DNA from: Hymenobacter taeanensis
GTDB taxonomy: Bacteria > Bacteroidota > Bacteroidia > Cytophagales > Hymenobacteraceae
Direction: 5' to 3'
Length of the DNA stretch: 64,000 nucleotides
Assembly (NCBI RefSeq): GCF_013137895.1
Contig: NZ_CP053538.1
Location: 2,107,501-2,171,500 of the forward strand
Of this stretch, positions 1 to 64,000 are shown in pieces; position 1 is the stretch's first letter, and the number at the start of each line of letters is the position of its first letter. Below the pieces are notes generated by a model, which searched no databases, was not told the DNA's origin, and saw only the letters and a program-made list of their open reading frames with translations. A program made the translations under genes and the position numbers.

Positions 1-201
1 TTGGGTGGCCTGCTGGGTTTCCAGCACCACCACCGTCGCGCTGGCCAGCGACCCCCGACTCTCGTGGTCGGAAATGCGGCCGCTCAGCGACAGGGCACAG
101 GTACCCGACTGGCCTAGGGCTACCGTAGCCGTGCTCCACAGCAGGAGCAACAGCCACACGCACCTAAACCGGTCCGGAGCGCCCGGAACACGGAAAAGCA
201 T
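1..201 (-). CDS. TonB-dependent receptor-like outer-membrane protein, N-terminal fragment (runs off left edge)
   Basis: The minus-strand frame from the ATG at 201 stays open to the window edge (67 codons). It starts with a signal peptide: basic residues, a leucine-rich core (VWLLLLLW) and a likely cleavage site after VALGQ. The mature start SLSGRISD followed by LASATVVVLETQQAT resembles the carboxypeptidase-regulatory-like (CarboxypepD_reg) domain at the N-terminus of many Bacteroidota TonB-dependent receptors. The plug and barrel would lie outside the window. It lies about 150 bp downstream of the small secreted His/Cys protein gene on the same strand, so the two may be co-transcribed. The receptor call is inferred from the N-terminus only; a carboxypeptidase-regulatory-domain protein without a barrel is also possible. 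Confidence 0.6.
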   Translation of the reverse strand, partial: MLFRVPGAPDRFRCVWLLLLLWSTATVALGQSGTCALSLSGRISDHESRGSLASATVVVLETQQATQ

Positions 202-350
202 ACAGAAAGGGGAGACGCCTCAACACTAAACTGGCCAGTGTAGCAGTCCCGACGGGAGGTAAGGGAAAGGCGTAATTCCTCTACAGGGTGCACGCCTACT
301 AAGGCCTCACTTCAGGAGGCAGGCGTGGCTACAAGTGGCCTACTGCAAGT

Positions 351-692
351 TTAGCTTAGGCTAGGCGGGCCGCGTAGGCCAGTAGTTGGGGTGAAAGCGG
401 CCACGCCCGCGGGCAGCGTACTTGCTGCTGCTACTGAAGAGTAGCTGGAAAGCTCAACCGGCAGGACCAGCGGCTCTGGGGTTTGGAAAGCTTCCTTGAA
501 AAACTGATCAACATCACAGTGCTGGTGCTTGGCCGAAAGCAGCGCTTTGCCCTTAGGCCACTTCACCGATTGCGTAGGCTCCTCGGTGGTGTGCTCGTGG
601 GTGTGCAAAGCCAGTACCCACGCATCAGGCAGCAGCACCCGCGCAAAGCACAGGAGCAGCACAAGAGCCAGACGAGACCGAAGGGTACGCAT
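351..692 (-). CDS. small secreted His/Cys-containing protein upstream of a TonB-receptor-like gene
   Basis: About 113 residues if translation starts at the ATG at 692 (MRTLRSRLAL); the ATG at 701 adds three residues. A hydrophobic signal peptide (LALVLLLCFARVLL) is followed by a His-rich segment (ALHTHEHTTEE) and a motif KHQHCDVDQFF. Small periplasmic proteins of this kind, with an HxHC-type motif, often precede TonB-dependent receptors in Bacteroidota and are suspected to handle metal or haem, but no function is established. The gene ends about 150 bp before the receptor-like gene. Longer in-frame extension to 758 lacks signal-peptide character, so I prefer the internal start. Function unknown; metal binding is inferred from the residues only. 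Confidence 0.6.
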   Translation of the reverse strand: MRTLRSRLALVLLLCFARVLLPDAWVLALHTHEHTTEEPTQSVKWPKGKALLSAKHQHCDVDQFFKEAFQTPEPLVLPVELSSYSSVAAASTLPAGVAAFTPTTGLRGPPSLS

Positions 693-861
693 TTGCAACA
701 TTGTATCAGCTGAGCGACAAATGTAGGAGGAAATATTTGTGAACCTACTGTTCAGCATTAAAAAGCATCAGCTGATTCACGAAAGCATAACCCCCTGACA
801 ACCTGCAGACAATATAGCTGTCAGACCTTTGTGCTGTTCCTCGTCAGTAAATAGAGCCACT

Positions 862-963
862 ATGAAAACCATCACAGCTGATTTGTTGCGTCGCTTAGCC
901 GCCATGTTGCGCCCTTCCTCAAAATCATCCGACCCAGATCATGCCGAGGTGCTATTTGTATGA
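862..963 (+). CDS. possible 33-residue small protein
   Basis: A short frame begins MKTITADLLRRLAAML and ends FV before TGA at 961-963. The next small frame starts at 960 in an ATGA overlap, an arrangement seen in translationally coupled genes. It lies in the otherwise empty stretch 702-1292. No family is recognised and no TAnnTTTG box was found just upstream, so it could be chance. Confidence 0.2.
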   Translation: MKTITADLLRRLAAMLRPSSKSSDPDHAEVLFV

Positions 964-1163
964 GTGGCACTACGCGAAAATCGTTCTTATATCGCCCAGC
1001 AAACTTCAGCTACCGCCTGACGAATAGGACTGCAACCAACCCTGCTGTTCACGAAACCCAAGCTGTATCTGTTAAGGGTAGCGTTTCCGCTGTACTACCT
1101 ATTGCAAACAGGCCACTGCGCCCAGTAAAGCAAGCAGCAATCTTGCTTAGGTCTTGGTACTGA
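960..1163 (+). CDS. possible 67-residue small protein overlapping the previous frame by ATGA
   Basis: The frame begins MSGTTRKSFLYRPANFSYR and ends ILLRSWY. It is basic, has no clear membrane segment or domain, and shares an ATGA stop/start overlap with the 33-residue frame before it. The composition could be that of a random frame. The rest of 764-1216 shows nothing else I can support. Confidence 0.2.
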   Translation: MSGTTRKSFLYRPANFSYRLTNRTATNPAVHETQAVSVKGSVSAVLPIANRPLRPVKQAAILLRSWY

Positions 1164-1216
1164 GCGAAGATGTGTGAATATTACATGAGTGTTTGGAAGA
1201 TTGATAGATAATTGAA

Positions 1217-1292: not shown

Positions 1293-1790
1293 ATGATGTG
1301 CGTAGTTAATTCCTTGTTTGTGCAGATTTTTCCACAGTATCGCTTGTTGCGGTGTGAATGGCGAGGTGCACTAAATTTTGCAGATTTTAGCCAAGCATTG
1401 GAACAGCTTCTGGTAATATCTCGAGATAATCAAATTACACATTGGTTGGTTGATAGTAGTACTATGCCTCTACTGGGTCTGGCTGAACAAGCCTGGCTCA
1501 GCGACGTGTGGCTGGAGCAGTTCTTGGTTATGGGCGTAGAGCAGTTGGCGCTCATTCAACCTCTTAGTCTCCACAACCAGCTCGTAATAGAGAATATCCT
1601 GAGTGAAGGGCAACGCTATGCCAAGATCAAGTTTCAGTTTTTTTCTGATTCCTCAGCGGCGCTTGATTGGCTGACCCGCTCTACTACACATCTGGTTGAG
1701 AGTTTAGAATATGAGTGGCAAGCGGCCTTGCCTCCTGCACAGCGCATTTACCGTAATGCTATGCGCGAGCTGTGGGAGGTAGGCCACTAG
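1293..1790 (+). CDS. STAS/SpoIIAA-like hypothetical protein
   Basis: A 165-residue soluble protein with no signal peptide. The pattern is hydrophobic strand (QIFPQYRLLRCEW), helix (FSQALEQLLVIS), strand (THWLVDSSTMPLL), helix (WLSDVWLEQFLVMG) and strand (LALIQPLS). This alternation resembles the STAS/SpoIIAA-like proteins often annotated in Hymenobacter; the phosphorylatable serine of true anti-sigma antagonists cannot be identified with confidence. It has its own consensus promoter at 1217-1246 and stands alone before htpG. An in-frame second ATG at 1296 would remove one residue. The function is not known; the fold assignment is inference from pattern. Confidence 0.55.
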   Translation: MMCVVNSLFVQIFPQYRLLRCEWRGALNFADFSQALEQLLVISRDNQITHWLVDSSTMPLLGLAEQAWLSDVWLEQFLVMGVEQLALIQPLSLHNQLVIENILSEGQRYAKIKFQFFSDSSAALDWLTRSTTHLVESLEYEWQAALPPAQRIYRNAMRELWEVGH

Positions 1791-1969
1791 GCCACGGCCC
1801 TGGCAAACGATGGCGGAAAGAGCACAATACGGAAAGAAAAGCGCTGTCAAACTGGCAGCCGCAGTGGAAATGGAATATGGTTTGAAGCCGGAGCTTTTGC
1901 TTGCTGGTATGTTTACCGGCTGGCATTTCGTCTGCATTCCTGTTTTTAACTCCTCTTTTCCAACGCACT

Positions 1970-3805
1970 ATGCAAGAGAAAGGCAGCATCTCGATTCATA
2001 CCGAGAATATCTTCCCCATCATCAAGAAATTTCTGTATTCTGACCACGAAATCTTCCTGCGGGAATTGGTCAGCAATGCCGTTGACGCCACACAGAAGCT
2101 GAAGAGCCTAGGCCAGCTGGGTGAGTTTAAAGGCGAGCTAGGTGAGCTGAAAGTAAAGGTGAGCGTAGACAAGGAGGCGCGTACCATTACCATCTCCGAC
2201 CGCGGCCTGGGCATGACGGGCGAAGAAATCAAGAAGTACATCAACCAGATTGCTTTCTCCGGGGCTTCTGAGTTTGTAGAGAAGTACAAGGAGCAGGATG
2301 CCGCTACTAAAGACCAGATTATCGGTAAGTTTGGTATGGGCTTCTACTCGGCGTTTATGGTAGCCAGCGAGGTAGAAATCTTCTCCAAGAGCTACCAGGA
2401 GGGTACTGAGGCGGCTCACTGGACTTGTGACGGTAGCACGGAGTTTACGCTCGAAACTGCTGACAAAGCCGACCGCGGTACTGATGTAGTCTTGCACGTA
2501 GCCGAAGACTCGGACGAGTTTCTGGAAGCGGCCCGCTTGCGCACCATCCTTACCAAGTACTGCAAGTTCCTGCCCATCGAAATTGAGTTTGAGGGCGAAG
2601 TAATCAACCAAACGGCGCCCATCTGGACAAAGCAGCCCTCAGAGCTGACCGACGAGGATTACAAGAAGTTCTACCATGAGCTGTATCCAATGTCGATGGA
2701 TGAGCCCCTATTCTGGATTCACCTCAACGTAGACTACCCCTTCAACCTGACGGGTATCCTGTACTTCCCGAAGGTAAAAGATGAGCTGCAGTTCCAGCGC
2801 AACAAAATCCAGCTGTACTCGCGTCAGGTGTTTATCACCGATGAGGTGAAAGACGTAGTGCCCGAGTTCCTGATGCTGCTCCACGGCGTTATTGATTCGC
2901 CTGATATTCCGCTGAACGTGTCGCGCAGCTTCTTGCAGGCTGATGCGGCCGTAAAGAAAATTAACACCTACATCACCAAGAAGGTAGCCGACAAGCTGGC
3001 CGAGTTGTTCCGCAAAGACCGCGCAGGCTTTGAGGAGAAATGGTCCGATATCGGCCTGTTCGTGAAGTATGGCATGCTCTCCGACGAGAAGTTCTACGAG
3101 AAGGCCAAGGATTTTGCGCTGGTACAGAACGTAGCCGGCAAATACTTCACCCTGGCGGAGTATCAGGAGCATGTGCAGGCCAACCAGAAAGACAAGAACG
3201 ACCAGACGGTAGTACTATACACCACCGACGCGGAGGCGCAGCACGCTTTTGTGCAAGCCGCTCAAGACCGGGGCTACGACGTGCTGAAACTGGATGCTGT
3301 GCTTGACTCGCACTTCATTGGCCAATTGGAGCAAAAGCTAGAGAAAACCACCTTTAAGCGCGTTGATGCCGACACCGTTGGCAAGCTCATCGAGAAAGAG
3401 GAGCAGCAGGAAAGTGTACTCAGCGACGACGACAAAACCAAGCTGCAGGAGCTTTACAAAGGCGCCATTAGCAACGAGCACATGCACGTGCAGGTAGAGG
3501 CGCTCTCGCCTCAGGATGCGCCGGTTATTATTACCTTGCCTGAGTTCATGCGCCGCATGAAAGACATGCAGCGCACTGGCGGTGGCGGCGGCATGCAGAT
3601 GTTCGGCAACCTGCCCGATAGCTACACGGTGAGCGTAAACGCCAACCATCCCATTGCCCAGCGCGTGCTGAAAGCTGAAGGAGAAGCCGGCAGCAAGCTG
3701 GCCCGGCAAGCCTACGACCTCGCGCTGCTGGCGCAAGGTATGCTGAAAGGAGAGGCGTTAACCGCCTTTGTGAAGCGTAGCGCTGATTTACTGGCTGCTG
3801 AATAG
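1970..3805 (+). CDS. htpG: molecular chaperone HtpG (Hsp90)
   Basis: A 611-residue cytosolic ATP-dependent chaperone of the Hsp90 family. The ATPase domain shows the family motifs ELVSNAVDATQKL, DRGLGMTGEEI and GKFGMGFYSAFMVA within the first ~140 residues. The middle domain carries GVIDSPDIPLNVSRSFLQ, and the C-terminal dimerisation domain follows. I chose the ATG at 1970 because the protein then begins MQEKGSISIHTENIFPIIKKF, the usual Hsp90 start; the upstream in-frame extension to 1901 has no family similarity. Length is normal for bacterial HtpG. A terminator-like stem-loop follows at 3838. Confidence 0.97.
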   Translation: MQEKGSISIHTENIFPIIKKFLYSDHEIFLRELVSNAVDATQKLKSLGQLGEFKGELGELKVKVSVDKEARTITISDRGLGMTGEEIKKYINQIAFSGASEFVEKYKEQDAATKDQIIGKFGMGFYSAFMVASEVEIFSKSYQEGTEAAHWTCDGSTEFTLETADKADRGTDVVLHVAEDSDEFLEAARLRTILTKYCKFLPIEIEFEGEVINQTAPIWTKQPSELTDEDYKKFYHELYPMSMDEPLFWIHLNVDYPFNLTGILYFPKVKDELQFQRNKIQLYSRQVFITDEVKDVVPEFLMLLHGVIDSPDIPLNVSRSFLQADAAVKKINTYITKKVADKLAELFRKDRAGFEEKWSDIGLFVKYGMLSDEKFYEKAKDFALVQNVAGKYFTLAEYQEHVQANQKDKNDQTVVLYTTDAEAQHAFVQAAQDRGYDVLKLDAVLDSHFIGQLEQKLEKTTFKRVDADTVGKLIEKEEQQESVLSDDDKTKLQELYKGAISNEHMHVQVEALSPQDAPVIITLPEFMRRMKDMQRTGGGGGMQMFGNLPDSYTVSVNANHPIAQRVLKAEGEAGSKLARQAYDLALLAQGMLKGEALTAFVKRSADLLAAE

Positions 3806-5468: not shown

Positions 5469-6431
5469 ATGCGTCTGTTCCGTCTGTACTTGCTTTTGCT
5501 GATAGGCCTTGGCCTTTCGGTAGCGGCATGCTCCAAAAAAACAGTTTCCTTCAATAGTAAGTCCAATGCTGGTGGCCTAGCCTTGGGCACAGACTCGCTG
5601 ACCACTACCTCCGACACAACTGCAGCTCCTTCACTGATAGCCAAGCGCACTACGCTTACCAAAGAGCAGGAGCGGGCCGCCAAGGAGAAAGAAAAGGCAG
5701 CGCAGCGCAAACCCAAAAAGAAGAAAAATATCTTTCTGGGTGAGCGGATTAAAAAGGGCTATGTGAAGTCAGGTGGCAAGGGCAAAAACCAACGAATCGA
5801 AACGTTCTATTATCTGCGCAGCTTCCAGCAGCCCAATCCGTATGCGCCGGCCCGCTACGTCTATGACCCCAAGAAGCGTCGGATTATCAAGGCTACCGGA
5901 GAGATTGATGGCAACCAGTATAAGGTGCTGCATGGCCCTTATAAAAAGACGGAGGGAGGCAAAGTAGTGGAAACCGGGTACTACGCCATTGGAACCAGGC
6001 ATCTGCGCTGGGAAACCTTTAACCGGGAGAACATTCTGCTCACCAAAACCCACTACGAGATGGGTTTCCCACGCGACGCCAACGTGACCTATTATGATGG
6101 GGCGCAAAAGCAGGTAAAAGAGGTAATACCGTTTGTGAATGGAAAGCTGGAAGGCGATTATGTGCGCTACAATGAGAACGGCCAGCTGGAGTGGGATGGG
6201 CAGTTTGAGAACGGGAAACGCATTGGTACCTGGAACCGCTACTGGGGCTTCCGGAACGCTCGCAACCGCCTACGCTACGAGTACCAGTACGGCGAAACAG
6301 GCTACGACCCCGAAGTAACGGAGCCTGTGCTGGTAAAAGAATACAACCGCAATGGTGTGCTCATCTACGAGAAAGATAAACTAGATAAGCGCGGCGAAGG
6401 CGATACTGCGCGCCCCGGCATGAAAAAGTAA
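5469..6431 (+). CDS. YwqK/MORN-type repeat lipoprotein
   Basis: About 320 residues from the ATG at 5469. The N-terminus is a lipoprotein signal with lipobox LSVAAC (Cys about residue 21). A Lys-rich linker (EKEKAAQRKPKKKKN) follows. The C-terminal half has MORN-like repeats (VNGKLEGDYVRYNENGQLEW, FENGKRIGTWNRYW) as in the family annotated 'toxin-antitoxin system YwqK family antitoxin'. That name is misleading here: no toxin gene is adjacent and the protein is probably an envelope lipoprotein. An upstream in-frame ATG at 5442 would put nine residues before the signal peptide, so I prefer the internal start. Its TAA stop is the first triplet of the palindrome at 6429-6508. Confidence 0.75.
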   Translation: MRLFRLYLLLLIGLGLSVAACSKKTVSFNSKSNAGGLALGTDSLTTTSDTTAAPSLIAKRTTLTKEQERAAKEKEKAAQRKPKKKKNIFLGERIKKGYVKSGGKGKNQRIETFYYLRSFQQPNPYAPARYVYDPKKRRIIKATGEIDGNQYKVLHGPYKKTEGGKVVETGYYAIGTRHLRWETFNRENILLTKTHYEMGFPRDANVTYYDGAQKQVKEVIPFVNGKLEGDYVRYNENGQLEWDGQFENGKRIGTWNRYWGFRNARNRLRYEYQYGETGYDPEVTEPVLVKEYNRNGVLIYEKDKLDKRGEGDTARPGMKK

Positions 6432-6508: not shown

Positions 6509-6865
6509 ATAGAAAGCATCTTCAAAGTGTGCAACCTGTAGGCCACTGCTGCTGGGCGTAATCGCTAGAATATCAAACCGAATGTCGCCGGTCCAAGCGA
6601 GGTGCTCCTGTACCTGCTCGGCTGCGCGCCGGAACAGCTCCTGTTTGCGAGGAGTCACAAATTCCTCAGGGTACCCGTAGCGTACCGTTGTCCTGGTTTT
6701 AACCTCCGCAAACACCAGTAGCTCCTGGCCCAGGCGCACTATCAGGTCCACTTCGGCCCGGCAGTAGCGGTAGTTGCGGTGTACCAGCGCATAACCCTGA
6801 GCCAGCAGGAACTCCAGTGCGGCGTCTTCCCCAGCTTGGCCTAGCATATGGGCAGTAATAGGCAT
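6506..6865 (-). CDS. yraN: YraN family protein (UPF0102), predicted endonuclease-like
   Basis: 119 residues from the ATG at 6865. It carries the YraN-family core: LGQAGEDAALEFLLAQGY near the N-terminus, RNYRYCRAEVDLIV, then VFAEVKTRT, the D/ExK-type residues of a restriction-endonuclease-like fold. A longer in-frame extension to 7027 exists, but the family begins at the chosen methionine (MPITAHMLGQAGED) and is usually about 120 residues long. Members are predicted, not proven, nucleases; a link to recombination or DNA processing is often suggested. It converges on the lipoprotein gene and shares its terminator. Confidence 0.9.
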   Translation of the reverse strand: MPITAHMLGQAGEDAALEFLLAQGYALVHRNYRYCRAEVDLIVRLGQELLVFAEVKTRTTVRYGYPEEFVTPRKQELFRRAAEQVQEHLAWTGDIRFDILAITPSSSGLQVAHFEDAFY

Positions 6866-7256: not shown

Positions 7257-8051
7257 ATGGACTTTCTTTCAGCCTGCGTAACCCCCAGCCCCCCCGGAGC
7301 TGCTTCCTTAGCAGTGGCGCCCGCGCTATCGGGGCAAAATCGGCAGATTCAGGTTCGCCGGTTGGGGTTGGTTGACTACGTACCTACCTGGGAGTTGCAG
7401 GAGCAGCTATTAGCTGATACGCTGGCAATTAAAGCCCGTAACCGCACTGCCCAAGAGCAGGCGCAGCCCTTTGAGCCAACGCCCAATTACCTGTTGCTGT
7501 GTGAACATCCGCATGTATATACTCTGGGCAAAAGCGGCAAGCCGGAGCACCTTCTCCTGAATGAAACTGGCCTGGCCGCCCACGCCGCTACCTTCCACCG
7601 GATCAACCGTGGCGGCGACATCACTTATCACGGACCTGGCCAGCTGGTAGGGTATCCCATCCTCGACCTGGATAACTTCTTCACCGATATCCACCGTTAC
7701 CTGCGGGTGCTGGAGGAGGCCGTTATCATGACCCTAGCCGACTACAATCTCCGCGCCGGGCGCATTGATGGGCTTACTGGCGTATGGCTTGATTTTGAAG
7801 CGGGAGCTGCTAACCCTCGCAAAATCTGTGCTTTAGGAGTAAAATGCAGCCGGTGGGTAACCATGCACGGCTTCGCCTTAAACGTCAACACCGACCTGTC
7901 GTATTTCGGGCATATTGTGCCTTGTGGCATTACCGATAAAGCAGTCACGTCTTTGCAGCAGGAGCTAGGCCAGGTAGTACCTGTAGCGGAGGTGCAGGAG
8001 CGTTTGCTACTACATTTGGCCGGATTATTGGGCGCCGAGCTCCGCTCTTGA
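7257..8051 (+). CDS. lipB: octanoyltransferase LipB
   Basis: 264 residues. LipB moves the octanoyl chain from octanoyl-ACP to the lipoyl domains of 2-oxoacid dehydrogenases, the first step of lipoate synthesis. The family signatures are HPHVYTLGKSGKPEHLL, INRGGDITYHGPGQLVGYPI and VKCSRWVTMHGFALNV. By family knowledge the acyl-carrying cysteine is Cys223 (HIVPCGITDKAVTS) and the partner lysine is Lys196 (ALGVKCSRW). The first ~30 residues are a poorly conserved extension before IQVRRLGLVDY; no better internal ATG is available. It is followed nine bases later by a small unknown gene and then by a WecA-type transferase, probably as one transcript. Confidence 0.95.
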   Translation: MDFLSACVTPSPPGAASLAVAPALSGQNRQIQVRRLGLVDYVPTWELQEQLLADTLAIKARNRTAQEQAQPFEPTPNYLLLCEHPHVYTLGKSGKPEHLLLNETGLAAHAATFHRINRGGDITYHGPGQLVGYPILDLDNFFTDIHRYLRVLEEAVIMTLADYNLRAGRIDGLTGVWLDFEAGAANPRKICALGVKCSRWVTMHGFALNVNTDLSYFGHIVPCGITDKAVTSLQQELGQVVPVAEVQERLLLHLAGLLGAELRS

Positions 8052-8548: not shown

Positions 8549-9616
8549 ATGAGTCACCTTGGAATTCAGTTGGGCCTGTCCTCTCTTTGGGCATTTCTGG
8601 TATCGATGTTTGCGGTGCCGTCCATTATTTACATCGCCCACCTGAAAAATATGCTCGATACGCCTAACGTGCGTACCGTCCATGAATCCCTGACTCCTCG
8701 CCTTGGTGGGGTTGCAGTGTTTGCCGGCTTCATGTCGGCTCTTACCATCTTCGCCGATCTATCACACGGGATTCAACAGCTGCTGGCTGGCTGCATTGTG
8801 CTGTTTTTTGTGGGGCTTAAGGATGATCTGGTGACCATTTCCGTCGCGAAGAAATTCGTAGGCCAACTGCTTGCTACCGGCATCGTCATGATTATGGCCG
8901 ATGTGCGCATCACGAGTTTCCAGGGCATTCTCGGAATACAGGAGTTGCCAGTTGGCATCAGCTACGCCTTTACTTTCCTGGTTATCGTGGGGATTACCAA
9001 CGCCATCAATCTCATTGATGGCCTCGATGGTTTGGCGGGTACTATTGTACTTATAATTGTGAGCACCTTCGGGTATTACTTCTATGAGTACGGCGGTCCT
9101 AACTTTCAGAACTACGTATTCGTCTCGGTTTGTGTGATAGGAGGAATGCTCGGCTTTCTGCGGTACAACTTCCACAAGGCCAGTATTTTCATGGGCGACA
9201 CGGGCTCTCTACTGTGTGGCTTCATTGTTTCCATCCTGACCATTCAATTTATCGAGATGGGGCTGAAGGTGGGGCAACCGTTTGCTTCTGCTGCACCCTC
9301 TGTGGCCGTTGGTATTCTGTTCGTGCCTCTTTTTGATACGTTGCGCGTGTTTATCGTACGTATGATGGCGGGCCGCTCGCCTTTTTCTCCTGACAAAAAC
9401 CACGTGCATCATCGCATCCTGGCTATGGGCTTCCAGCAAATCAGCACAGTTATGCTGTTAGGAGCGCTTAACTTGGTGGTGATTCTGTTTGTCATCAATT
9501 TCGCCTACCTCGGCAACACAATGCTTATTGTTGGGCTGGTTGTGTTTTCTGTGTTGCTCAGCTTTCTGCTGGGGGTATACCAGAGCCGCAGTGCCCAGCA
9601 ACGAGTGGCTTCCTAG
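8549..9616 (+). CDS. MraY/WecA/TagO-family undecaprenyl-phosphate sugar-1-phosphate transferase
   Basis: About 355 residues from the ATG at 8549 (an in-frame TTG at 8534 is less likely). This polytopic inner-membrane enzyme family transfers a sugar-1-phosphate, usually GlcNAc-1-P, from UDP-sugar to undecaprenyl phosphate, starting O-antigen or other surface glycan synthesis. Visible signatures are TPRLGGVAVF, GLKDDL, NAINLIDGLDGLAG, FMGDTGSLLCG and the C-terminal HVHHRIL loop; the aspartates in KDD and DGLDG are the expected catalytic and Mg-binding residues. About ten membrane helices alternate with these loops. The HHR-type loop fits the WecA/TagO branch rather than MraY; the exact sugar cannot be read from sequence. 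Confidence 0.9.
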   Translation: MSHLGIQLGLSSLWAFLVSMFAVPSIIYIAHLKNMLDTPNVRTVHESLTPRLGGVAVFAGFMSALTIFADLSHGIQQLLAGCIVLFFVGLKDDLVTISVAKKFVGQLLATGIVMIMADVRITSFQGILGIQELPVGISYAFTFLVIVGITNAINLIDGLDGLAGTIVLIIVSTFGYYFYEYGGPNFQNYVFVSVCVIGGMLGFLRYNFHKASIFMGDTGSLLCGFIVSILTIQFIEMGLKVGQPFASAAPSVAVGILFVPLFDTLRVFIVRMMAGRSPFSPDKNHVHHRILAMGFQQISTVMLLGALNLVVILFVINFAYLGNTMLIVGLVVFSVLLSFLLGVYQSRSAQQRVAS

Positions 9617-9633
9617 GCCACTTTTACCGTATT

Positions 9634-10818
9634 ATGGTTGTGCGTTCCACCGGTGTATATGCTCTGCTGCTACTGCTTGGGTTGCTTTTAGGCACCGTCC
9701 GGCTGACTTCAGCGGCAGAATATCGGGCGCTACCAGTGGCTCCGCGCGCAGGCCTCACCTCCGACTGGCTTATTCATGATGCGGAAGGGAACCGGCTGGT
9801 TTTGTACCTCCCCGATTACCATTCCCCAGCCCATGCTTATTACCAATGGCTTACTATCAGGCCTGGCAAGCCATTCCCTATTAGCTTCACTGCTCGTCAG
9901 GGCCTAAGCCTGTTTATCGATAATCGGCTGGTGTTTACCGCGCGCACACCTGCCTCTTATACCGTCGATCTAACCCAGCTACTTCCGGCAGGCTCCACGG
10001 CCGGTTCTCACTTGCTATGCGTTTGGCAGGAAGATGCCGTTCCCAATCTCGCTTCGTTTGCTAACGTAGCCGCCACTCCCGTTGCTCCCAAGGGTAAGAC
10101 TTCGGGAGCTGCTCTTGTAGCTCAGCCCCGGCCCCGTGGTCACCAGGGCCAAACGGTATTCCTGTGCTTCCTCTTGGTAATCGGACTGGCCTACGGTAGC
10201 ATTCGGGCCACATATCAACCGGGTTTCGCGCGTATTTATCAGGTAGAAGGGCTCTGGGGAAAAGCATCCGTTGAGCAGGACTTCTTAACCAAGCCCACTA
10301 TAACCTGGCTTAATCTGGGTCTGGTGCTACTCTTTTCCTTATCCTTTGCCCTGCTTCTGGTAGCCATTCATACCAATATTCAGAGCATCGTTATTCTACG
10401 ACGGTTATTTGACGTGCCCGAATCGGCAATTGTGTTGAGGGTGCTGCTGTATACTGCTCTAGTGGCGGGGTTTGTGATAGGCAAATACCTATTTCTGGAG
10501 CTTATGGGGTATATTTTTGACGTGACAGACCTGGTAATGGTACAATACCGAGAGTTTGTACGCACTATTTTGTTTATGGGGCTGTTTCTACCCTTAGTGA
10601 TGTTCCTGTATCTCGGGCTCAACCAGCGGCTACCAGAAACGGTCTTGTGGGTTTCCAACGGGGTGGTTTCCTTGCTGTTGGTAGGCACCGTACTACGGGT
10701 TGCCCGTACTCTGCATAGGAAGGCGTCGCTGCTAAATCTTCATTTGTTTTCGTACCTTTGCGCCACAGAAGTGATACCCTTGGTCATTCTGTTAAAGCTG
10801 ATTGTTTTTACCTACTGA
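9634..10818 (+). CDS. DUF4271 domain membrane protein
   Basis: 394 residues. An N-terminal signal peptide (YALLLLLGLLLGTVRL) is followed by a periplasmic region of about 170 residues rich in beta strands, then six or so membrane helices from residue ~170 (VFLCFLLVIGLAYGSI, WLNLGLVLLFSLSFALLL, through to VIPLVILLKLIVF). The helical part, with IGKYLFLELMGYIF and the position immediately before hemD, matches the DUF4271 family of Bacteroidota. No activity is known. It starts 17 bp after the WecA-type gene and precedes hemD, so the block is probably transcribed together. Confidence 0.8.
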   Translation: MVVRSTGVYALLLLLGLLLGTVRLTSAAEYRALPVAPRAGLTSDWLIHDAEGNRLVLYLPDYHSPAHAYYQWLTIRPGKPFPISFTARQGLSLFIDNRLVFTARTPASYTVDLTQLLPAGSTAGSHLLCVWQEDAVPNLASFANVAATPVAPKGKTSGAALVAQPRPRGHQGQTVFLCFLLVIGLAYGSIRATYQPGFARIYQVEGLWGKASVEQDFLTKPTITWLNLGLVLLFSLSFALLLVAIHTNIQSIVILRRLFDVPESAIVLRVLLYTALVAGFVIGKYLFLELMGYIFDVTDLVMVQYREFVRTILFMGLFLPLVMFLYLGLNQRLPETVLWVSNGVVSLLLVGTVLRVARTLHRKASLLNLHLFSYLCATEVIPLVILLKLIVFTY

Positions 10819-10896: not shown

Positions 10897-11727
10897 ATGG
10901 CCGAAAGCAACGACAAACCGGGGACGGGCCGTCATGCCAAGCGTATCTCCAGCATTCTTGTCACCCAGCCCAAGCCCACGAACGACGTTTCTCCCTACTT
11001 TGCTATTGCCGATAAGTATGGCATCAAGGTAGATTTTCGTGAGTTTATTGAGGTGCAGCCGGTCTCCTACAAGGACTTCCGCAAAGAAAAGGTCAACATT
11101 CTTGAGCATACGGCTATCATTTTCACGAGCCGTAATGCCGTAGACCATTTCTTCCGCACTTGCCAGGAAGCCAAGATTGAGATGCCAGCGGAGATGAAGT
11201 ATTTCTGCATCTCTGAGCAAACGGCTAATTACTTGCAGAAGTATATTGTGCTACGCAAGCGCAAGCTATTTGTAGGCCAGCGGACGGCCGCTGATCTGTT
11301 CGAGGTCATCAAGAAGCATAAGAACGAGAAGTTCCTGTATCCCTGCTCCGACATTCGCAAGGATGATATCCCGGAGTTTATGCGGGCAAATGGCTTCAAG
11401 TTTACGGAGGCTGTTATTTATCGTACCGTTGCCAGCGACCTGTCTGACTTGTCAGATGTGAAGTACGACTGCATTGCTTTCTTCAGTCCCTCAGGTATTA
11501 GCTCGCTCTTCATCAATTTCCCTGATTTCGAGCAAAATGGTACCCGTATTGCCGCATTCGGCCCTACTACGGCTAAAGCAGTCATTGACGCAGGGTTAGA
11601 GCTTGATATTGAGGCTCCCCAACCCAATGCACCCTCCATGACCGGCGCTATTGAGGCCTACATACGGCTGCATCATGGGGCCGATAGTAACAAGGAAAAA
11701 AGCAAGAACGGCAAGCAAAGCGCCTGA
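10897..11727 (+). CDS. hemD: uroporphyrinogen-III synthase
   Basis: About 276 residues from the ATG at 10897 (MAESNDKPGTGRHAKRISSI); the in-frame ATG at 10852 adds a non-conserved leader. The Bacteroidota HemD form is recognised by ISSILVTQPKP, EHTAIIFTSRNAVDHFF, KFLYPCSDIRKDDIPEFM and YDCIAFFSPSGISSLF, with AAFGPTTAKAVIDAGL near the end. The enzyme cyclises hydroxymethylbilane with inversion of ring D in haem synthesis. Sequence conservation in this family is low, but the order of motifs and the location after a DUF4271 gene both fit. The Lys-rich tail (KEKSKNGK) is not conserved. Confidence 0.88.
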   Translation: MAESNDKPGTGRHAKRISSILVTQPKPTNDVSPYFAIADKYGIKVDFREFIEVQPVSYKDFRKEKVNILEHTAIIFTSRNAVDHFFRTCQEAKIEMPAEMKYFCISEQTANYLQKYIVLRKRKLFVGQRTAADLFEVIKKHKNEKFLYPCSDIRKDDIPEFMRANGFKFTEAVIYRTVASDLSDLSDVKYDCIAFFSPSGISSLFINFPDFEQNGTRIAAFGPTTAKAVIDAGLELDIEAPQPNAPSMTGAIEAYIRLHHGADSNKEKSKNGKQSA

Positions 11728-17735: not shown

Positions 17736-17743
17736 GTTTTCCA

Positions 17744-17768
17744 TGTCCCGTCCGGGTATGTGTTGACA
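17744..17768 (+). repeat. left terminal inverted repeat of the IS3-family element
   Basis: 25 bp beginning TGTCCCGTCCGG and ending TGTTGACA. It matches the reverse complement of 19086-19110 at 22 of 25 positions; the three differences are at positions 13, 16 and 17. Confidence 0.92.
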
Positions 17769-17785
17769 CTTTCCCCAGAAATGTC

Positions 17786-46087: not shown

Positions 46088-46171
46088 GTTGGCAAATAGT
46101 TTCTAGGCCACTTATAGGGGCAACAATGGCCCAGGGCGTAGTTGGGTAGTACACAAGGCCGCCTAAAATTT

Positions 46172-49779: not shown

Positions 49780-49930
49780 ACGTTGGGCTATTGGGGCTTG
49801 GGAACTTAGGCGGTTGAGTAGTGAGTGGCCTAGGAAATAGGTGTATTAAGGTCGCGGGGCTCAGAGCTTGGTTGCTATCCTGGAAAATAAAACGTCAGAA
49901 AATTAACCAAGTCCCTACACCATCAGGTTC

Positions 49931-51274: not shown

Positions 51275-52969
51275 ATGAAAAAGAACCTCCGCGTTTTGCT
51301 ACTGGCCGCCGGGCCGGGCCTGCTGGCCCCCGCCGGTGCTACCCTGGCGCAAACGCCCACGGCCGCCCGGCCGGCATTGAGCAACCAGTCGGCTGTAGTC
51401 GACAATATGCCCTTGTCGCTGCAGCAAGCCATTGAGTACGCAATTAAGAACAAGTCGTCGTTGCTGGCTACGCGCCTGGCTGAGCAGACAGCCAAGGCCC
51501 GCGTTGGGGAAATTAAATCGGCTGGTTTGCCACAGGTGAACGTAGCGGCCAACCTAGCCGACAACTTCAAGCTGCAAAAAAGCTTGGTTGACTTTGGTTC
51601 GTTGGGAGGTGGAAGCTCAGCTACTACCCTTACGCAAGCGGATATTGCAGCAGCCCAGAACGGGCAGACTGTAAATCTGGGCACGGTTACTTTGCCCTCA
51701 GAGCCCGTGCCCCCACAGGCCTTTGCCTTTGGCTTGCAGTACGCCGGCAATACCAGTGCCTCGGTATCGCAGCTGCTGTTTGATGGCTCTTACCTGATTG
51801 GCCTGAAGGCCGCGAAGGTGTACGAGCAGCTAGCCCAGAAGCAAACCCAACAAGCCGAAATTGATGTGGTAGAGCAGGTAAGCAAAGCCTACTACAGCAC
51901 GCTGGTAGCGCGCGAGCGGCTGCAGCTGCTGAGCCGCAATGTGCAGCGCCTCGACACCATTCTGTTTCAAACCAACCAAACCTTCAAGGCTGGTTTTGCT
52001 GAGAAGCTGGATGTGCAACGCCTGCAGGTGCAGCGCAATAACCTGGTAGTAGAGCAGCAGAAAGCCCAGCGCCTCACGGAGCTGAGCGTGGCTCTACTCA
52101 AATTTCAGATGGGCTTGCAACAGGAGCAAACCGTGCAGCTCACTGACTCGCTCAGTGCAGCAGTGATTGATGCCGGGGCGCTCCGCCAGCGCTTAGGCGT
52201 GGCCAGCCCCACAACGGGTGGTGGGGTAAGTGGCCTAGCAGGTGTGCCTACTGCCCCCGCTCCCACTTCGGGCAACGGAGCCGAGCAGGCGCGCCAAGAC
52301 CAGCAAACCGCGCTTAGCGGGGCCCGGGTTGGGCAGCTGGCCGCTGCCTTCAACTATAATAACCGCATTGAGTTTAGCACCCTGGAAACTCAGCAGGCGT
52401 TAGCTGGCCTAGACCTGGCTAACCGTCGGGCCGGGGCTTACCCCCGGCTGGTGGCTACGGCCGCCTACGGTTTCTCGGGGTCGGCTAAAACGGCCGGTAA
52501 CCTGTTTGCCTTCCGGGGCCCCGACTCGCGCGCTTCTAATGGCTTCCCCAACCAAAACTGGTTTGGTTTCGGCAACGTGGGCCTAAGCCTGCAGATTCCG
52601 GTATTCGACGGGTTCCGTCGTAAGTACCAGGTGCAGCAGGCGCGCATTGCGCAGCAAACCATTGAGAAAGGCTTTGAAACCCTGCGCCAGAGCATCGACT
52701 TACAAGAAGCGCAGAGCCGCACTACCCTTGTTAATGCCCTGGATGTGCTGGATAACCAAAAGGCCAACCTGGAGCTGGCCGATGAAGTGGCCCGCGTATC
52801 GCGCATCAAGTTCAAGGAAGGCGTAGGCTCTAACATTGAAGTGGTTACGGCCGAAACTTCCCTCCGCGAAGCCCAGACCAACTACTACGCTGCCCTTTAT
52901 GATGTGCTGGTGGCTAAAGTAGACCGCGACAAGGCTACGGGTGAACTGTATAACCAAGCCAAAAAGTAA
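51275..52969 (+). CDS. TolC-family outer-membrane efflux protein
   Basis: 564 residues with a signal region ([20 protein letters not shown]). The TolC fold is seen as two repeated long helical hairpins and barrel strands: [20 protein letters not shown] opens the first half and [20 protein letters not shown] the second, ending [18 protein letters not shown] Gly/Pro/Thr-rich insert of about 60 residues (around residues 300-350) interrupts the two halves and is unusual in length. Forms the outer-membrane exit of the pump encoded by the next two genes. Confidence 0.93.
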
Positions 52970-53063: not shown

Positions 53064-54182
53064 ATGAAATACGTTACTTCTGCCTTGTTACTGACTTTGG
53101 GCCTGATGACCGCTTGCGGCGACAAAGACCCCAAGGCTGAGCTGGCCAAGCTGAAACAGGAACAAGCCGCTAACCAAGCTAAAATTGCCGCGCTGGAAGC
53201 CAAAACCGGCGCCAACGACTCGTCGGCGGTAATAACCACGCCCGTATCTGTAATTAAAGTAGCCCCCGAAAGCTTCACGAGCTACCTGGAGCTGCAGGGC
53301 CGCGTAGATTTTGACCAGAACGCTACCGTGGGCGCCCGGGCTGCCGGCACACTCACCAGCCTGCGCGTGCAGCGCGGCGACAACGTGCGCAAAGGCCAGG
53401 TGCTGGCTACGGTAGATGCCTCCATCCTCGACGCCAATATTGCGGAGCTTCGCACTCGCATGGATCTGGCTCGGGTGGTATTTGAAAAGCAAGAGCGCCT
53501 CTGGAAACAGGAAATTGGCACCGAGATTCAGTATCTGCAAGCCAAGAACAACTACCAGGCCCTGCAGCGCAACATGGCTACACTTAACCAGCAGCGTGCC
53601 CTTTATAATGTAGTAGCACCCTTCAGCGGTACCGTTGATGATGTGCTGCCCAAGCTGGGCGAAACTGTTGCTCCGGGTGCTCCGGTAGTAAAGCTGCTTA
53701 GCAGCGGCAGCACCGGCAAAATTGTGGTTGATGTGTCAGAGGCCTACGCTTCCCGCATCAAGGTTGGAGACAAGGCTCTGGTTACCATTCCTGACCTAGG
53801 CCAGGAAGAGATACCCGCCACGGTTCGTGTGGTGACCAGCACTATTAATCCCACCAGCCGCACGTTCACTACGGAGCTGCGCCTGAACAGCAACAAGGCG
53901 GGCCAACTGCGCCCCAACATGGTGGCCAATGTGCGCATTCAAAACTATAACCAGCAGAGCGCTACCGTACTGCCGGTTGACTTGGTGCAGAAGGATGAGC
54001 AGAACAGCTACGTGCTGGTAGTAGGTGACAAAGGCGGCCGCAAAGTGGCGGCTAAGCGCGTCATCAAAACCGGCAACACCTACAATGGCAAAGTAGAAGT
54101 AACCAGTGGCCTACAGGCCGGCGACCAGGTTATTTCTGCCGGTTACCAGAATTTGAATGAAGGCCAGGCGGTTAGCCTATAG
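53064..54182 (+). CDS. RND efflux periplasmic adaptor (HlyD/MFP family) lipoprotein
   Basis: About 372 residues from the ATG at 53064. A lipoprotein signal ends at lipobox LMTAC. A short coiled coil ([20 protein letters not shown]) follows, then the adaptor start [20 protein letters not shown] and the lipoyl-type motif [20 protein letters not shown]. The beta-barrel region includes [20 protein letters not shown]. This part bridges the inner-membrane permease and the TolC-like protein. The in-frame start at 52941 would hide the lipobox. Confidence 0.94.
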
Positions 54183-58120: not shown

Positions 58121-58780
58121 CTAGCGAACGTTACCGCCAGGGTTACCGCCACTCGGGCGCGATTCAGTGGTTGTATTGGGCTCGCGGCTGCTGTCAGTGG
58201 TGTTAGCGGCCGTATCAGCATGCAACTTGGCTTCAGCGGCTTCGCGGTCGGCGTTAGCGGGAGTAGGGTGGGCTGCATCGGGCGTTTCTACGGGCGTAAT
58301 GCTAGCGGTAGAAGCCGTGGCAGCAGAAGAGGTTACGGGTTTTTCATCTTCTACCACAGTAGGGCGGGTTTTTTCCCACTCAGCAAATTTATCCAACTCC
58401 TCCTTGATGGTGGTGCTGAACCAGGCTACTAAGGCTACGTCATCCAATAACCCCAGAACCGGAATAAAGTCCGGAATTAGGTCAATAGGGCTTAAGAAGT
58501 AGATGGTTACGGCTACGGCCGCTACCACTGTGCTAGTGGGTAGGCCAGTATACTCGCCCGAAACAGAGGTGCGGATAAGCCGGAACAGGGTTTGGAGAGT
58601 TTCCCAGGCCTCATGCGCCAGCGAGCCAACATCGTTCTTTTCGCTGGCCTTCTGGTACGCGTCATTTAGCAGTTGCTTCATGCGCGTGGGCTTCTTAATG
58701 TATTCTTCGGCTTTGCCTACGAATTTCTTGAAAATAGGGGACGAGGCAATGTTTTCGCCTTTAGGGGTTTCGTTAGCCAT
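58121..58780 (-). CDS. YkvA/DUF1232 family protein
   Basis: About 219 residues from the ATG at 58780 (MANETPKGENIASSPIFKKF). The family core is a pair of helices around TVVAAVAVTIYFLSPIDLIP followed by DFIPVLGLLDDVALVAWFST. The tail is low-complexity (Ala, Thr, Asn, Ser) and ends in GGNPGGNVR. YkvA proteins are small membrane proteins of unknown function. The tail is unusually long for the family. The in-frame ATG at 58819 adds an unrelated leader. Confidence 0.85.
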   Translation of the reverse strand: MANETPKGENIASSPIFKKFVGKAEEYIKKPTRMKQLLNDAYQKASEKNDVGSLAHEAWETLQTLFRLIRTSVSGEYTGLPTSTVVAAVAVTIYFLSPIDLIPDFIPVLGLLDDVALVAWFSTTIKEELDKFAEWEKTRPTVVEDEKPVTSSAATASTASITPVETPDAAHPTPANADREAAEAKLHADTAANTTDSSREPNTTTESRPSGGNPGGNVR

Positions 58781-61589: not shown

Positions 61590-62045
61590 ATGAAACAAAC
61601 GTCATCCCTTTTACAGGCATTAGGCAGTGGCCTAGCCGGCGCTTTGGTCCTTAACATCCTGCACGAAACGGTGCGCCACATCAGGCCGGATGATGCCCCA
61701 CGGATGGATGTGCTGGGCAAGCGGGGCCTACGTAAATTACTGCGCAAGGCCGATGCTCCGCAGCCCGATGAAGATACCGCCTACGGCTTAACTATGCTCG
61801 GTGACTTAGTCAGTAATGGCTTGTATTACAGCTTTGTAAGCACTGGGCGCGGAGTGTGGCTGCGTGGGGTGGCACTAGGCCTGGCTGCTGGTGTGGGCGG
61901 TGTGGTGCTGCCCGGGCCTATGGGCTTGGGAGAAGCTCCCAGCAACCGCACCCCTCAAACAAAAGCCATGACGGTGGCCTGGTACCTAATAGGTGGCCTA
62001 GCAACCGCTGGGGTATCGTGGGCCTGGAGTAAAGCGCAGGAGTGA
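61590..62045 (+). CDS. small membrane protein, function unknown
   Basis: About 151 residues from the ATG at 61590 (MKQTSSLLQALGSGLAGALV). Three hydrophobic segments are visible: LGSGLAGALVLNILHETV, WLRGVALGLAAGVGGVVLPG and TVAWYLIGGLATAGVSWAWS. Charged loop PDDAPRMDVLGKRGLRKLLR lies between the first two. I do not recognise the family. The in-frame start at 61473 would place 39 non-membrane residues first and overlaps nothing recognisable. Confidence 0.75.
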   Translation: MKQTSSLLQALGSGLAGALVLNILHETVRHIRPDDAPRMDVLGKRGLRKLLRKADAPQPDEDTAYGLTMLGDLVSNGLYYSFVSTGRGVWLRGVALGLAAGVGGVVLPGPMGLGEAPSNRTPQTKAMTVAWYLIGGLATAGVSWAWSKAQE

Positions 62046-62164
62046 GGGCATCAGTGGATGCTGATTCAGCCAGCATCCATTGATGCACCGCCTCTACAGC
62101 TTACGAGCTAGATGGATGCTAAGCCCTTCCTAACGCGGCCGGACCTGCTACCTTTACGCTCGTT

Positions 62165-62941
62165 ATGATGAAGCAATTCCGTAAGCTGTTAGTTCGCACG
62201 CTTGGTTTCGAGTCGTATATCCGCTTGGTGAGCCGCGTGTACCTGCGGCTGGTGGGTATGGGCTGGGGCCGCCAGAAGTATCCGGAGTTATTCTTCCTGG
62301 AGAAGCTGGTAAGGCCAGGGTATGTGTGCGTGGATATTGGCGCTAACCTGGGCTACTATTCCGTGGCATTGTCGCGGTTGGTGGGGGCACAGGGCAGAGT
62401 ACTAGCCGTTGAGCCCATCCCCGATTTTCAGGCTATCTGGAAAGACAATGTACGTTTAAGCCATTGCCAGAACCTAACGCTACTACCCTACGCTCTCGGC
62501 GGGGAGAATACCACCGTGCAAATGGGCACACCGGAGCGCGACGGCCTGTTACACCACGGCATGACTAAAGTGGCGGCCAGTAATACGCAGGAGCATTATG
62601 CCCGCACGTATGACGTGCCCATGCGGGTACCCGATGAGCTGTTTAGCCAGCTAGAGCGCCTAGACTTTGTAAAGTGCGATGTAGAAGGCTTCGAGTATGA
62701 GGTGTTCCGGCACATGCAGGCTACTTTGCGGCGCTTTCAACCGCTCATCCAAACGGAGCTAAACGGCCTGGGAAACCGCCAGGGAGTGGTAAAATTGCTG
62801 GCTGCGCTAGGCTACAAACCATTTATGCTTTCTGAGCGTTCTGAATTGGTACCGTGTTCTGAGGCGCAGCTAACCAGCGCCGTTACGGCCGACTTTTACT
62901 TTCAACCCATTTCCCCTGCTCTCCCGGAGGCTACCCGTTAA
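62165..62941 (+). CDS. FkbM family methyltransferase
   Basis: 258 residues. The Rossmann SAM-binding signature is VCVDIGANLGYYSVALSRLV then VLAVEPIPDFQAIWKDNV. Late motif RLDFVKCDVEGFEYEVF is the FkbM family hallmark. The substrate is usually a hydroxyl on a glycan or polyketide; no companion glycosyltransferase is adjacent here. The start may be either ATG of the tandem ATGATG at 62165. A TACCTTTA sequence 10 bp upstream resembles a -7 box. The stop overlaps the next gene start (TAATG). Confidence 0.85.
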   Translation: MMKQFRKLLVRTLGFESYIRLVSRVYLRLVGMGWGRQKYPELFFLEKLVRPGYVCVDIGANLGYYSVALSRLVGAQGRVLAVEPIPDFQAIWKDNVRLSHCQNLTLLPYALGGENTTVQMGTPERDGLLHHGMTKVAASNTQEHYARTYDVPMRVPDELFSQLERLDFVKCDVEGFEYEVFRHMQATLRRFQPLIQTELNGLGNRQGVVKLLAALGYKPFMLSERSELVPCSEAQLTSAVTADFYFQPISPALPEATR

Positions 62942-63231
62942 TGGCTACATTCCTGTTCACCCTTCTCGTTGTATTTTTCATTGCCCGCTTCGTGTTGCCC
63001 GTGGTGTTGCGTATAGTAGTTGGCAACTTCATTAAGAAGCAGGCCCGCCGCTATGGGCAAGCAGCTGGAGGTAGCCCTTTTGGTTCTCCCTTCGAGCCAG
63101 CTCAGCCGCGCAGTAATGGCAATGCCTCAACGGGTGAAGTGCACGTTGATTATGTGCCGCCTCGCCAAAAGCCGCAGCCACCTAAAGACTTCAAGGGTGG
63201 CGACTACGTTGACTTTGAAGAAGTAAAGTAG
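62941..63231 (+). CDS. DUF4834 family protein
   Basis: 96 residues. One N-terminal membrane helix (FLFTLLVVFFIARFVLPVVL) is followed by a short amphipathic stretch KKQARRYGQAAGG and a charged tail with VHVDYVPPRQKPQPPKDFKG, ending GGDYVDFEEVK, the family's usual end. Function unknown. It overlaps the FkbM gene stop by one base (TAATG), so translation is coupled. Confidence 0.82.
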   Translation: MATFLFTLLVVFFIARFVLPVVLRIVVGNFIKKQARRYGQAAGGSPFGSPFEPAQPRSNGNASTGEVHVDYVPPRQKPQPPKDFKGGDYVDFEEVK

Positions 63232-63324
63232 TCTAGGCCACTTGCTGAAGGGAATAGGCCAACCAAGCTCCTGTCAGATAGCGTAGCTAGTTCTTGCTTG
63301 GCGGTTTATAATCACTGACTGATT

Positions 63325-63363
63325 AAAAAGCCCTTACTTCAATAGTAGAAGTAAGGGCTTTTT
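63325..63363 (+). terminator. intrinsic terminator after the DUF4834 gene
   Basis: Perfect 16-base arms (63325-63340, 63348-63363) with a 7-base loop and a run of T residues at the right end. It can serve both the plus-strand operon and the DUF5686 gene on the minus strand. Confidence 0.85.
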
Positions 63364-63469
63364 CCTGCTCAAATGCTTCACTCATTGGTCAGGAAGGCCT
63401 GCTATACTATCCGGCGGAGGCGCCGTTGAGTCTCCCCGTAAAAGCACTTTACTTTATCATCGCTTGATC

Positions 63470-64000
63470 TTAGAACCCAATGCCCACCCGTAGGCCAGTA
63501 CCTACGCGCTGGCCCGACTGTAGGCCAGTGTAAAAGTCGACGCGAATGATCTTGAATACGTGCTCAACTCCCACCCCCAACTCCAGGTAATGGTTGGCCG
63601 CTGGCGTGGTGAGGTAGTTCAAAGACGCCACCTCTTGCCACTTTAAGCGGCGCAGCACCGGTATTTTGTTTAGCAGGAACCCATTAAAATGGTGGTTGTA
63701 GTGCGCTTCCAGGAAGCGGTCTTGCGTGCTGAAGCGGTAATAATCAAGAAGCTGAAACTGGCTGAAGTCGCTGGCCAGGTAAGTGCGGTTGCCGCTGAAA
63801 TGGCGGAAGTCCATGAAGTCGAGGCGCGGAGAGCCGGGGAAGAAGCCAGCCGCTACGCGGTAGTTGCTGGTGCCCAACAGGCCCAGGTTTACGGAGTGAC
63901 GCAAACCGGCCTCCAGTAAGGTGTAATGCACATCGGAGCCCAGCACGCTGCCTACCCCTTGCCGCCACCGAAACTGGAAAGTAGGGTACTTGGAGCCTAG
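63470..64000 (-). CDS. DUF5686-type outer-membrane protein, C-terminal fragment (runs off right edge)
   Basis: The minus-strand frame is open from the right edge to the stop at 63470 (about 176 residues). It contains YPTFQFRWRQGVGSVLGSDV then LGTSNYRVAAGFFPGSPRLD, FMDFRHFSGNRTYL, LDYYRFSTQDRFLEAHYNHH and VFKIIRVDFYTGLQSGQRVG, ending RVGIGF. This pattern of strands and the FRHFSGNRT stretch are those of the C-terminal barrel of DUF5686/carboxypeptidase-like outer-membrane proteins. The N-terminal regulatory domain lies outside the window. A different barrel family cannot be excluded, but is less likely. Confidence 0.82.
   Translation of the reverse strand, partial: LGSKYPTFQFRWRQGVGSVLGSDVHYTLLEAGLRHSVNLGLLGTSNYRVAAGFFPGSPRLDFMDFRHFSGNRTYLASDFSQFQLLDYYRFSTQDRFLEAHYNHHFNGFLLNKIPVLRRLKWQEVASLNYLTTPAANHYLELGVGVEHVFKIIRVDFYTGLQSGQRVGTGLRVGIGF

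Follow-up and report, generated by a model that had tools for sequence, protein, structure and literature searches.

A ten-base word iterated about once per kb in the chromosome of Hymenobacter taeanensis, its dialects in relatives, and a possible role in the recognition of self DNA

Copies of TGGCCTA in the window and in the chromosome

The window analysed here is a stretch of 64,000 nucleotides of the chromosome of Hymenobacter taeanensis, a member of the Bacteroidota (assembly GCF_013137895.1, contig NZ_CP053538.1, positions 2,107,501 to 2,171,500), and the element in question is a heptamer, TGGCCTA or its complement TAGGCCA, scattered through it. An exact count gave 61 copies (31 TAGGCCA and 30 TGGCCTA), where an order-2 Markov model predicts 12.8; no other 7-mer of the window has as high a z. 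A first-pass annotation made by eye had reported about 60 copies, most of them extended by a C or G; such an extension was found in 55 of the 61, and all 12 coordinates it cited fell within 0-3 bases of a genuine copy. It was also right that copies lie in both orientations, in genes and in gaps: 47 are in genes, 12 are intergenic and 2 straddle a gene end, a split that rests on a home-made gene caller. The copies are listed below, with their fate in two other carriers of the word, H. fodinae and H. wooponensis, where noted (ORF, open reading frame).

110..116, +, TGGCCTA copy
336..342, +, TGGCCTA copy, intergenic
375..381, -, TGGCCTA copy
554..560, -, TGGCCTA copy
1780..1786, -, TGGCCTA copy
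1788..1794, -, TGGCCTA copy, gives TAG stop of ORF ending 1790
2109..2115, -, TGGCCTA copy
5573..5579, +, TGGCCTA copy
6539..6545, -, TGGCCTA copy
6837..6843, +, TGGCCTA copy
7966..7972, -, TGGCCTA copy, kept in H. fodinae and H. wooponensis
8859..8865, -, TGGCCTA copy, kept in H. fodinae and H. wooponensis
9614..9620, -, TGGCCTA copy, gives TAG stop of ORF ending 9616, kept in H. fodinae and H. wooponensis
10187..10193, +, TGGCCTA copy, kept in H. fodinae and H. wooponensis
11273..11279, -, TGGCCTA copy, kept in H. wooponensis
12684..12690, +, TGGCCTA copy, kept in H. fodinae
12725..12731, +, TGGCCTA copy, kept in H. fodinae, also present in one non-carrier (L053)
13628..13634, +, TGGCCTA copy, kept in H. 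fodinae
20995..21001, -, TGGCCTA copy, intergenic, kept in H. fodinae and H. wooponensis
22134..22140, -, TGGCCTA copy, absent in H. fodinae and H. wooponensis, present in two non-carriers (L052, L053)
22919..22925, -, TGGCCTA copy, kept in H. fodinae and H. wooponensis
23495..23501, -, TGGCCTA copy, intergenic, kept in H. fodinae and H. wooponensis
25481..25487, -, TGGCCTA copy, kept in H. fodinae and H. wooponensis
25931..25937, +, TGGCCTA copy, kept in H. fodinae and H. wooponensis
26630..26636, +, TGGCCTA copy, kept in H. wooponensis
27958..27964, +, TGGCCTA copy, in H. taeanensis only among aligned genomes
29153..29159, -, TGGCCTA copy, intergenic, overlaps TAGGCCTA palindrome at 29147, kept in H. 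fodinae and H. wooponensis
30197..30203, +, TGGCCTA copy, kept in H. fodinae and H. wooponensis
31185..31191, +, TGGCCTA copy
32299..32305, +, TGGCCTA copy
32997..33003, +, TGGCCTA copy, intergenic
33881..33887, +, TGGCCTA copy, intergenic
34686..34692, -, TGGCCTA copy
34941..34947, -, TGGCCTA copy
34998..35004, -, TGGCCTA copy
36456..36462, +, TGGCCTA copy, intergenic
37997..38003, -, TGGCCTA copy
39272..39278, +, TGGCCTA copy
40748..40754, +, TGGCCTA copy
41123..41129, +, TGGCCTA copy
41332..41338, -, TGGCCTA copy
42142..42148, +, TGGCCTA copy
42285..42291, +, TGGCCTA copy
42344..42350, +, TGGCCTA copy, TAG at 42349-42351 ends ORF 41890-42351
43482..43488, -, TGGCCTA copy, intergenic
46104..46110, -, TGGCCTA copy
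46457..46463, -, TGGCCTA copy
49231..49237, -, TGGCCTA copy
49826..49832, +, TGGCCTA copy, intergenic
50304..50310, +, TGGCCTA copy
52231..52237, +, TGGCCTA copy
52405..52411, +, TGGCCTA copy
53797..53803, -, TGGCCTA copy
54107..54113, +, TGGCCTA copy
58541..58547, -, TGGCCTA copy
61628..61634, +, TGGCCTA copy, intergenic
61994..62000, +, TGGCCTA copy
63234..63240, -, TGGCCTA copy, intergenic
63255..63261, -, TGGCCTA copy, intergenic
63491..63497, -, TGGCCTA copy
63521..63527, -, TGGCCTA copy

The excess is genome-wide. The single contig of 4,879,662 bases (G000 in our genome survey) holds 4,871 copies, compared with 418 of the reversed control word. In a sample of 864 kb, made of the window and 40 evenly spaced 20-kb stretches of the same genome, 828 copies were found where an order-3 Markov model predicts 168. 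Neither a Markov-corrected count near expectation nor an excess confined to the window, the two outcomes that the first-pass annotation had named as fatal to its claim, was observed.

Analysis of the flanks revealed a longer, asymmetric unit of about 10 bases, A[C/G]TGGCCTA[G>C]. Written as ASTGGCCTAG (S, C or G), the 10-mer occurs 253 times in the 864-kb sample against 3.45 expected, i.e. a 73-fold excess, and its palindromy is limited to the GGCC core. T>A at the third base of this unit is the sole well-tolerated core change (31-fold), the remaining substitutions in the seven core bases bringing enrichment down to 0.3- to 4.3-fold. Individual one-off neighbours of the heptamer scatter (e.g. 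TGTCCTA, 0.30 vs 0.88); when 20 of the 21 are summed, leaving out AGGCCTA which is itself enriched 3.1-fold, the observed/expected ratio is 0.94 in this genome, compared to 1.01 in genomes without the TGGCCTA word. Conversion of one-off neighbours into TGGCCTA was rejected, as their sum shows no depletion.

Copies follow a Poisson distribution along the chromosome: over the 40 stretches, the count per 20 kb has a mean of 19.2 and a variance of 20.8, and gaps between copies average 978 bases with a coefficient of variation of 1.09, i.e. a density of about one per kb. Both strand and codon-position preference were checked. Strands are used equally (2,454 and 2,417 copies), no replichore bias was detected (best two-breakpoint split, p = 0.29, 300 permutations), and the forward share of copies shows no more than a weak correlation with gene direction (r 0.38) and GC skew (r -0.26). 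Within genes, 413 copies were counted against 97 after synonymous-codon shuffling, about four-fold, using a gene caller that marked 63% of the DNA as coding; the excess is present in all five permitted frames, the rare frame AGG CCA included (17 vs 0.5). With a better caller (83.5% coding), densities were 1.45 per kb between genes and 0.81 per kb in genes. An inverted partner lies within 40 bases for 29 of the 828 copies, and an arrangement as terminators or inverted pairs was rejected on this count.

TAG stops are common in this genome (293 of the 694 scored in the 864-kb sample), partly because the word itself supplies them: 38 of the 293 are made by TAG followed by GCCA.

The word is at background level in a 54-kb island (3,046,500-3,100,232, GC 0.587; loci L229, L033, L230 and L231). 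Starting from L033, the sample stretch with the lowest count (4 copies), 5 copies were found in the island against about 52 at the genome rate (P = 1e-16, for a region chosen for being empty). As these 5 copies are near the island's own Markov background of 7.9, the lack is not due to base composition. Among the genes of the island are homologues of the defence proteins SspB, SspC, SspD, SspA/DndA-type and BrxL, a Hsp70-like gene, a Y-family polymerase and a NACHT-like protein that falls just below the Pfam cut-off; a tyrosine integrase and tRNA-Leu(CAA) lie just outside the right motif boundary, at 3,101,500-3,103,075.

Carriers of the word and other words in relatives

A comparison with related Hymenobacter genomes, put forward in the first-pass annotation as a check of its claim, showed that the word is restricted to four genomes of the genus. 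ASTGGCCTA is raised in 4 of 120: H. taeanensis (2,462 copies), H. fodinae (G024, 3,650), G026 (4,185) and H. wooponensis (G119, 3,481). G024 and G119 were assigned to these two species by the identity of their match coordinates. The other 116 contain 21-148 copies, and none of 84 further Hymenobacteraceae genomes had a raised count. On a UvrC tree of 81 rows, where G026 was not placed, the sequences of H. taeanensis, H. fodinae and H. wooponensis form a clade with support 100/100.

Between carriers, the sites are conserved. Over the 64 kb of synteny, copies of H. taeanensis are intact at 43 of 55 alignable sites in H. wooponensis, 42 of 53 in H. fodinae and 33 of 51 in G026, i.e. 65-79%, against 24-34% for three control heptamer sets, and 22 of 47 sites are common to all four. 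Substitution amounts to 3-8% at the eight motif bases and to 10-26% (mean ~18%) at the flanks, with a sharp edge. In H. latericoloratus, which is without the TGGCCTA word, 1 of 44 sites is intact, and 43 of the 44 copies are one to four base changes away from its sequence. The alignments show copies arising through substitution, some of them in intergenic gaps.

Relatives have words of their own. When 25 samples were counted for five words, exactly one word stood out in 19 of them (2.9- to 10.5-fold). Five of the remaining six had few copies at most of any word, and the sixth, H. polaris, only had CCTAGGGC, a variant of word C. Word A is ASTGGCCTAG itself, in H. taeanensis and the three other carriers. 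Word B, CTACCCC/CCCTACCCC, was found in H. ginkgonis, UV11, H. latericoloratus, and H. profundi and citatus (pooled); word C, ACCTAGGG, in H. setariae, BT559, H. cavernae, H. crusticola, Solirubrum and two genomes of a further genus; word D, GCTAGCCC, in two genomes; and word E, GGGGCCCC, in H. nivis and H. caeli. Words A to D have a CTA core in common. These words occur about 0.4-1.7 times per kb, depending on the word counted, and lie in genes and more densely between them (nine genomes measured). Palindromes make up all or part of words C, D and E (CCTAGG, GGCTAGCC, GGGGCCCC). Whole-genome counts of CCTAGG were 5,585-8,806 in 6 of the 120 genus genomes, 1,209-2,331 in the four word-A carriers and 63-888 in the other 110.

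The scan covered 79 of 80 loci (one of 5.5 kb was dropped), most of them of ~21.8 kb; 18 passed the score and 12 were accepted. L079 and L089 (TGGGGGGCA) were set aside as repeats, and L056, L103, L111 and L117 as weak. Of ten genomes that had no accepted word and were chosen for resampling, one (G230, 1.6 kb) was dropped and nine gave ~62 kb in all: a word was found in four of these and none in five, several pooled clades being likewise without one. As the pooled-clade scan relies on orthologous loci, its weaker rows may be inflated by words conserved by descent. Outside the genus, seven genomes of other genera of the family were scanned for ACCTAGGG, which is present in two, both of one genus, and not in the other five, three of which have AT-rich repeats. 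ACCTAGGG was not iterated in any of 118 genomes drawn from across the order, Hymenobacter accounting for 9 (maximum 167 copies).

In G134, a genome of another genus of the family (L207-L208), AACTATA was found 106 times in 40 kb against 8.4 expected, 61 copies being in predicted genes. This may be one more word of the CTA-core type.

Candidate roles of the word

Words iterated thousands of times are, to our knowledge, known from few groups. The Hymenobacter word resembles the DNA uptake sequences (DUS) of Neisseriaceae and the uptake signal sequences (USS) of Pasteurellaceae, which are short asymmetric words with thousands of copies on both strands and lineage-specific dialects sharing a short core. 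DUS are more frequent in intergenic DNA than in genes, and newly acquired DNA is devoid of them. The density of about one copy per kb, far above Markov expectation, the equal strands, the spread over the whole chromosome, the absence from DNA that looks recently acquired (in one island) and the presence of ComEC all agree with DUS and USS; the type IV pilus machinery was not found. The Hymenobacter word further differs from DUS by its phylum, by few inverted pairs (29/828 within 40 bases) and by its CTA core, missing from GGGGCCCC, whereas a CTG core is common to eight dialects of DUS (PMC3630211).

By analogy with these systems, we tentatively favour the view that the TGGCCTA-core word is a self-DNA recognition word working like DNA uptake sequences, with dialects, a view we hold as credible if somewhat short of probable. 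A small Hymenobacter group would introduce A[C/G]TGGCCTA[G>C] into its chromosome through point substitutions, at roughly one copy per kb, and retain it. A sequence-specific protein would read the word as a label of self DNA, most likely at the uptake or processing of transforming DNA; word-bearing fragments would enter or recombine better, so that copies would spread by biased transfer, newly arrived elements would be without the word, and changes of specificity in the recognising protein would produce the dialects of other lineages. With more reserve, we propose that five or more mutually exclusive words (ASTGGCCTAG, CCCTACCCC, ACCTAGGG, GCTAGCCC and GGGGCCCC) in Hymenobacteraceae may be read by a putative protein of a pilus-independent DNA-uptake or DNA-sorting pathway. 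Bacteroidota would thereby gain their first uptake-sequence-like system, to judge from the literature searched: the open-licence PubMed Central (PMC) papers yielded no account of a word of this kind in Hymenobacter or elsewhere in the phylum. Riemerella columbina, also of the Bacteroidota, is reported to be transformed preferentially by its own DNA, with no established word (PMC7965970). We do not claim that the word belongs to the DUS, a search for the pilus machinery having found none.

Several observations weigh against recognition at uptake. PF00437, the ATPase of type IV pili and type II secretion, was over the cut-off in none of 38 Hymenobacter-type genomes (2 matches below it; pilins were not searched), and what known uptake-sequence species use as uptake machine and pilin receptor thus seems to be missing. 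The inner-membrane DNA channel ComEC is present in 38 of 38 and equally in genomes without a word; it does not track the trait, and was rejected as its switch. No gene tracking the words was found, without a pan-genome comparison, and the literature gave no account of competence in Hymenobacter. At L002 and L030, two stretches of the H. taeanensis genome with low GC (0.44 and 0.40), the word was counted 12 and 13 times per 20 kb; DNA of unusual appearance is thus not always devoid of it. In the four-carrier 64-kb comparison, divergence did not fall near shared sites, and a signature of local recombination is thus missing. Word E is without the CTA core of the others. Finally, on the UvrC tree, labelled from the 20-kb scan alone, word C is not clustered and requires four label changes; such a repeated appearance in separate branches is not obviously predicted by one inherited receptor.

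The first-pass annotation had compared the word to HIP1, the highly iterated palindrome of cyanobacteria (GCGATCGC). The comparison stands for density, for both strands, for genes and gaps, and for a genome-wide, lineage-specific spread; it fails in that ASTGGCCTAG is no palindrome and no methyltransferase for its internal sequence was matched among PF00145, PF01555 and PF02384, the only families tested in the H. taeanensis genome. HIP1 membership of these carriers was rejected on these two points, and the role of methylase mark, listed there among the possible ones, is disfavoured for want of a match in these families. A related explanation, which we consider unlikely, is a methylation by-product, where an orphan methyltransferase with methyl-directed mismatch repair (Elhai's HIP1 model) or a Vsr-type repair ratchets the word up without selection. 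HIP1 and alternate HIPs do show the same ~1/kb and sporadic alternative words, the cause of HIP1 being still a matter of models in that source (PMC4390886), and the palindromes of words C, D and E would fit. However, none of the three families can be common to all four carriers, given no match in H. taeanensis; Vsr repair was rejected, PF03852 being matched in 1 of the 4; the sum of one-off neighbours is not depleted (0.94 vs 1.01); and copies per 20 kb are Poisson rather than evened out. An artefact of composition, codons or amino acids is practically excluded. Several other high-z k-mers of the window do look codon-driven (GTGCTG, TGCTGG), but the synonymous shuffles, the rare AGG CCA frame, the higher density between genes and the background level in 116 of 120 genus genomes refute it for TGGCCTA.

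Chi sites, read by RecBCD or AddAB, are likewise over-represented asymmetric short words, and a helicase-nuclease that pauses at the word, sparing or recombining the DNA that bears it, would favour dense chromosomal copies. The length of ~8-10 bases, the conservation and the absence from the island go along with this; yet there is no co-orientation with replication (p = 0.29, the correlations with gene direction and GC skew being weak), close relatives have very different words, and ASTGGCCTA, unlike the recombination nucleases, which belong to the core genes, is confined to 4 of the 120 Hymenobacter genomes. A Chi-like role has little likelihood, and a Chi or FtsK-orienting (KOPS) role is disfavoured. 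The site of a nucleoid-associated or segregation protein (KOPS- or matS-like), with a specificity drifting between lineages, looks rather improbable: the even spread (mean 19.2, variance 20.8) and the conserved, short profile, which resembles that of a binding site, would suit it, but neither polarity nor restriction to a domain is seen, and for close relatives to have switched to entirely different words, thousands of sites would have had to co-evolve with no transfer process driving them. Modification of the word by a phosphorothioation or BREX-type (bacteriophage exclusion) system, protecting the chromosome, is very improbable. Such systems mark self DNA, the genome has the Ssp and BrxL homologues, and the TAGGCCA strand ends in CCA, which we take to be the reported Ssp site; these genes, though, lie inside the word-poor island and so look recently acquired, while the word is common to four genomes and the other dialects are without CCA.

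If the word is indeed an uptake word, gene exchange in a large phylum would be sequence-specific without type IV pili, species barriers would be set by dialects, and motif-free islands would be a simple finder of recent acquisitions. If it is not, these genomes would make a clean test case of a chromosome rewritten with thousands of copies without an evident methyltransferase. Since the trait switches on within one genus, near relatives having other words, its cause can be sought by comparing a few named species.

Further repeats and the insertion sequence of the window

Further repeats were met in the survey. In H. roseosalivarius and BT188 (L079, L089, L225, L226), a AAAAGCCCCCCAGC-type repeat is strongly enriched and denser between genes; in BT188, 10 of 52 GCCCCCC copies have an inverted partner within 40 bases. 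In G120 (L189-L191), a AAAACGCTAT repeat has 18 copies in 60 kb against 0.2 expected, and 16 of 25 AAACGCTA copies are not wholly inside predicted genes. The hexamer GGATCC, counted as a control in the 120 genus genomes, has 0-51 copies in 46 and 62-325 in the other 74 (counted by eye), which suggests that it is avoided in many Hymenobacter lineages.

The first-pass annotation had named three places empty of the word: positions 14118-17743, the insertion sequence and a gene for a permease of the resistance-nodulation-division (RND) family. All three are genuinely copy-free, but each is weak evidence alone, the probability of zero copies being 0.03, 0.26 and 0.04 respectively; the 54-kb island, which lies outside the window, is a far stronger case. 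The insertion sequence is as follows:

17738..19143, +, insertion sequence, motif-free, with helix-turn-helix orfA and rve integrase-core orfB

Its lack of copies is not significant by itself, and it has no counterpart at the corresponding place in H. fodinae and H. wooponensis. It sits between the GldM gene (15112-16692) and uvrC.

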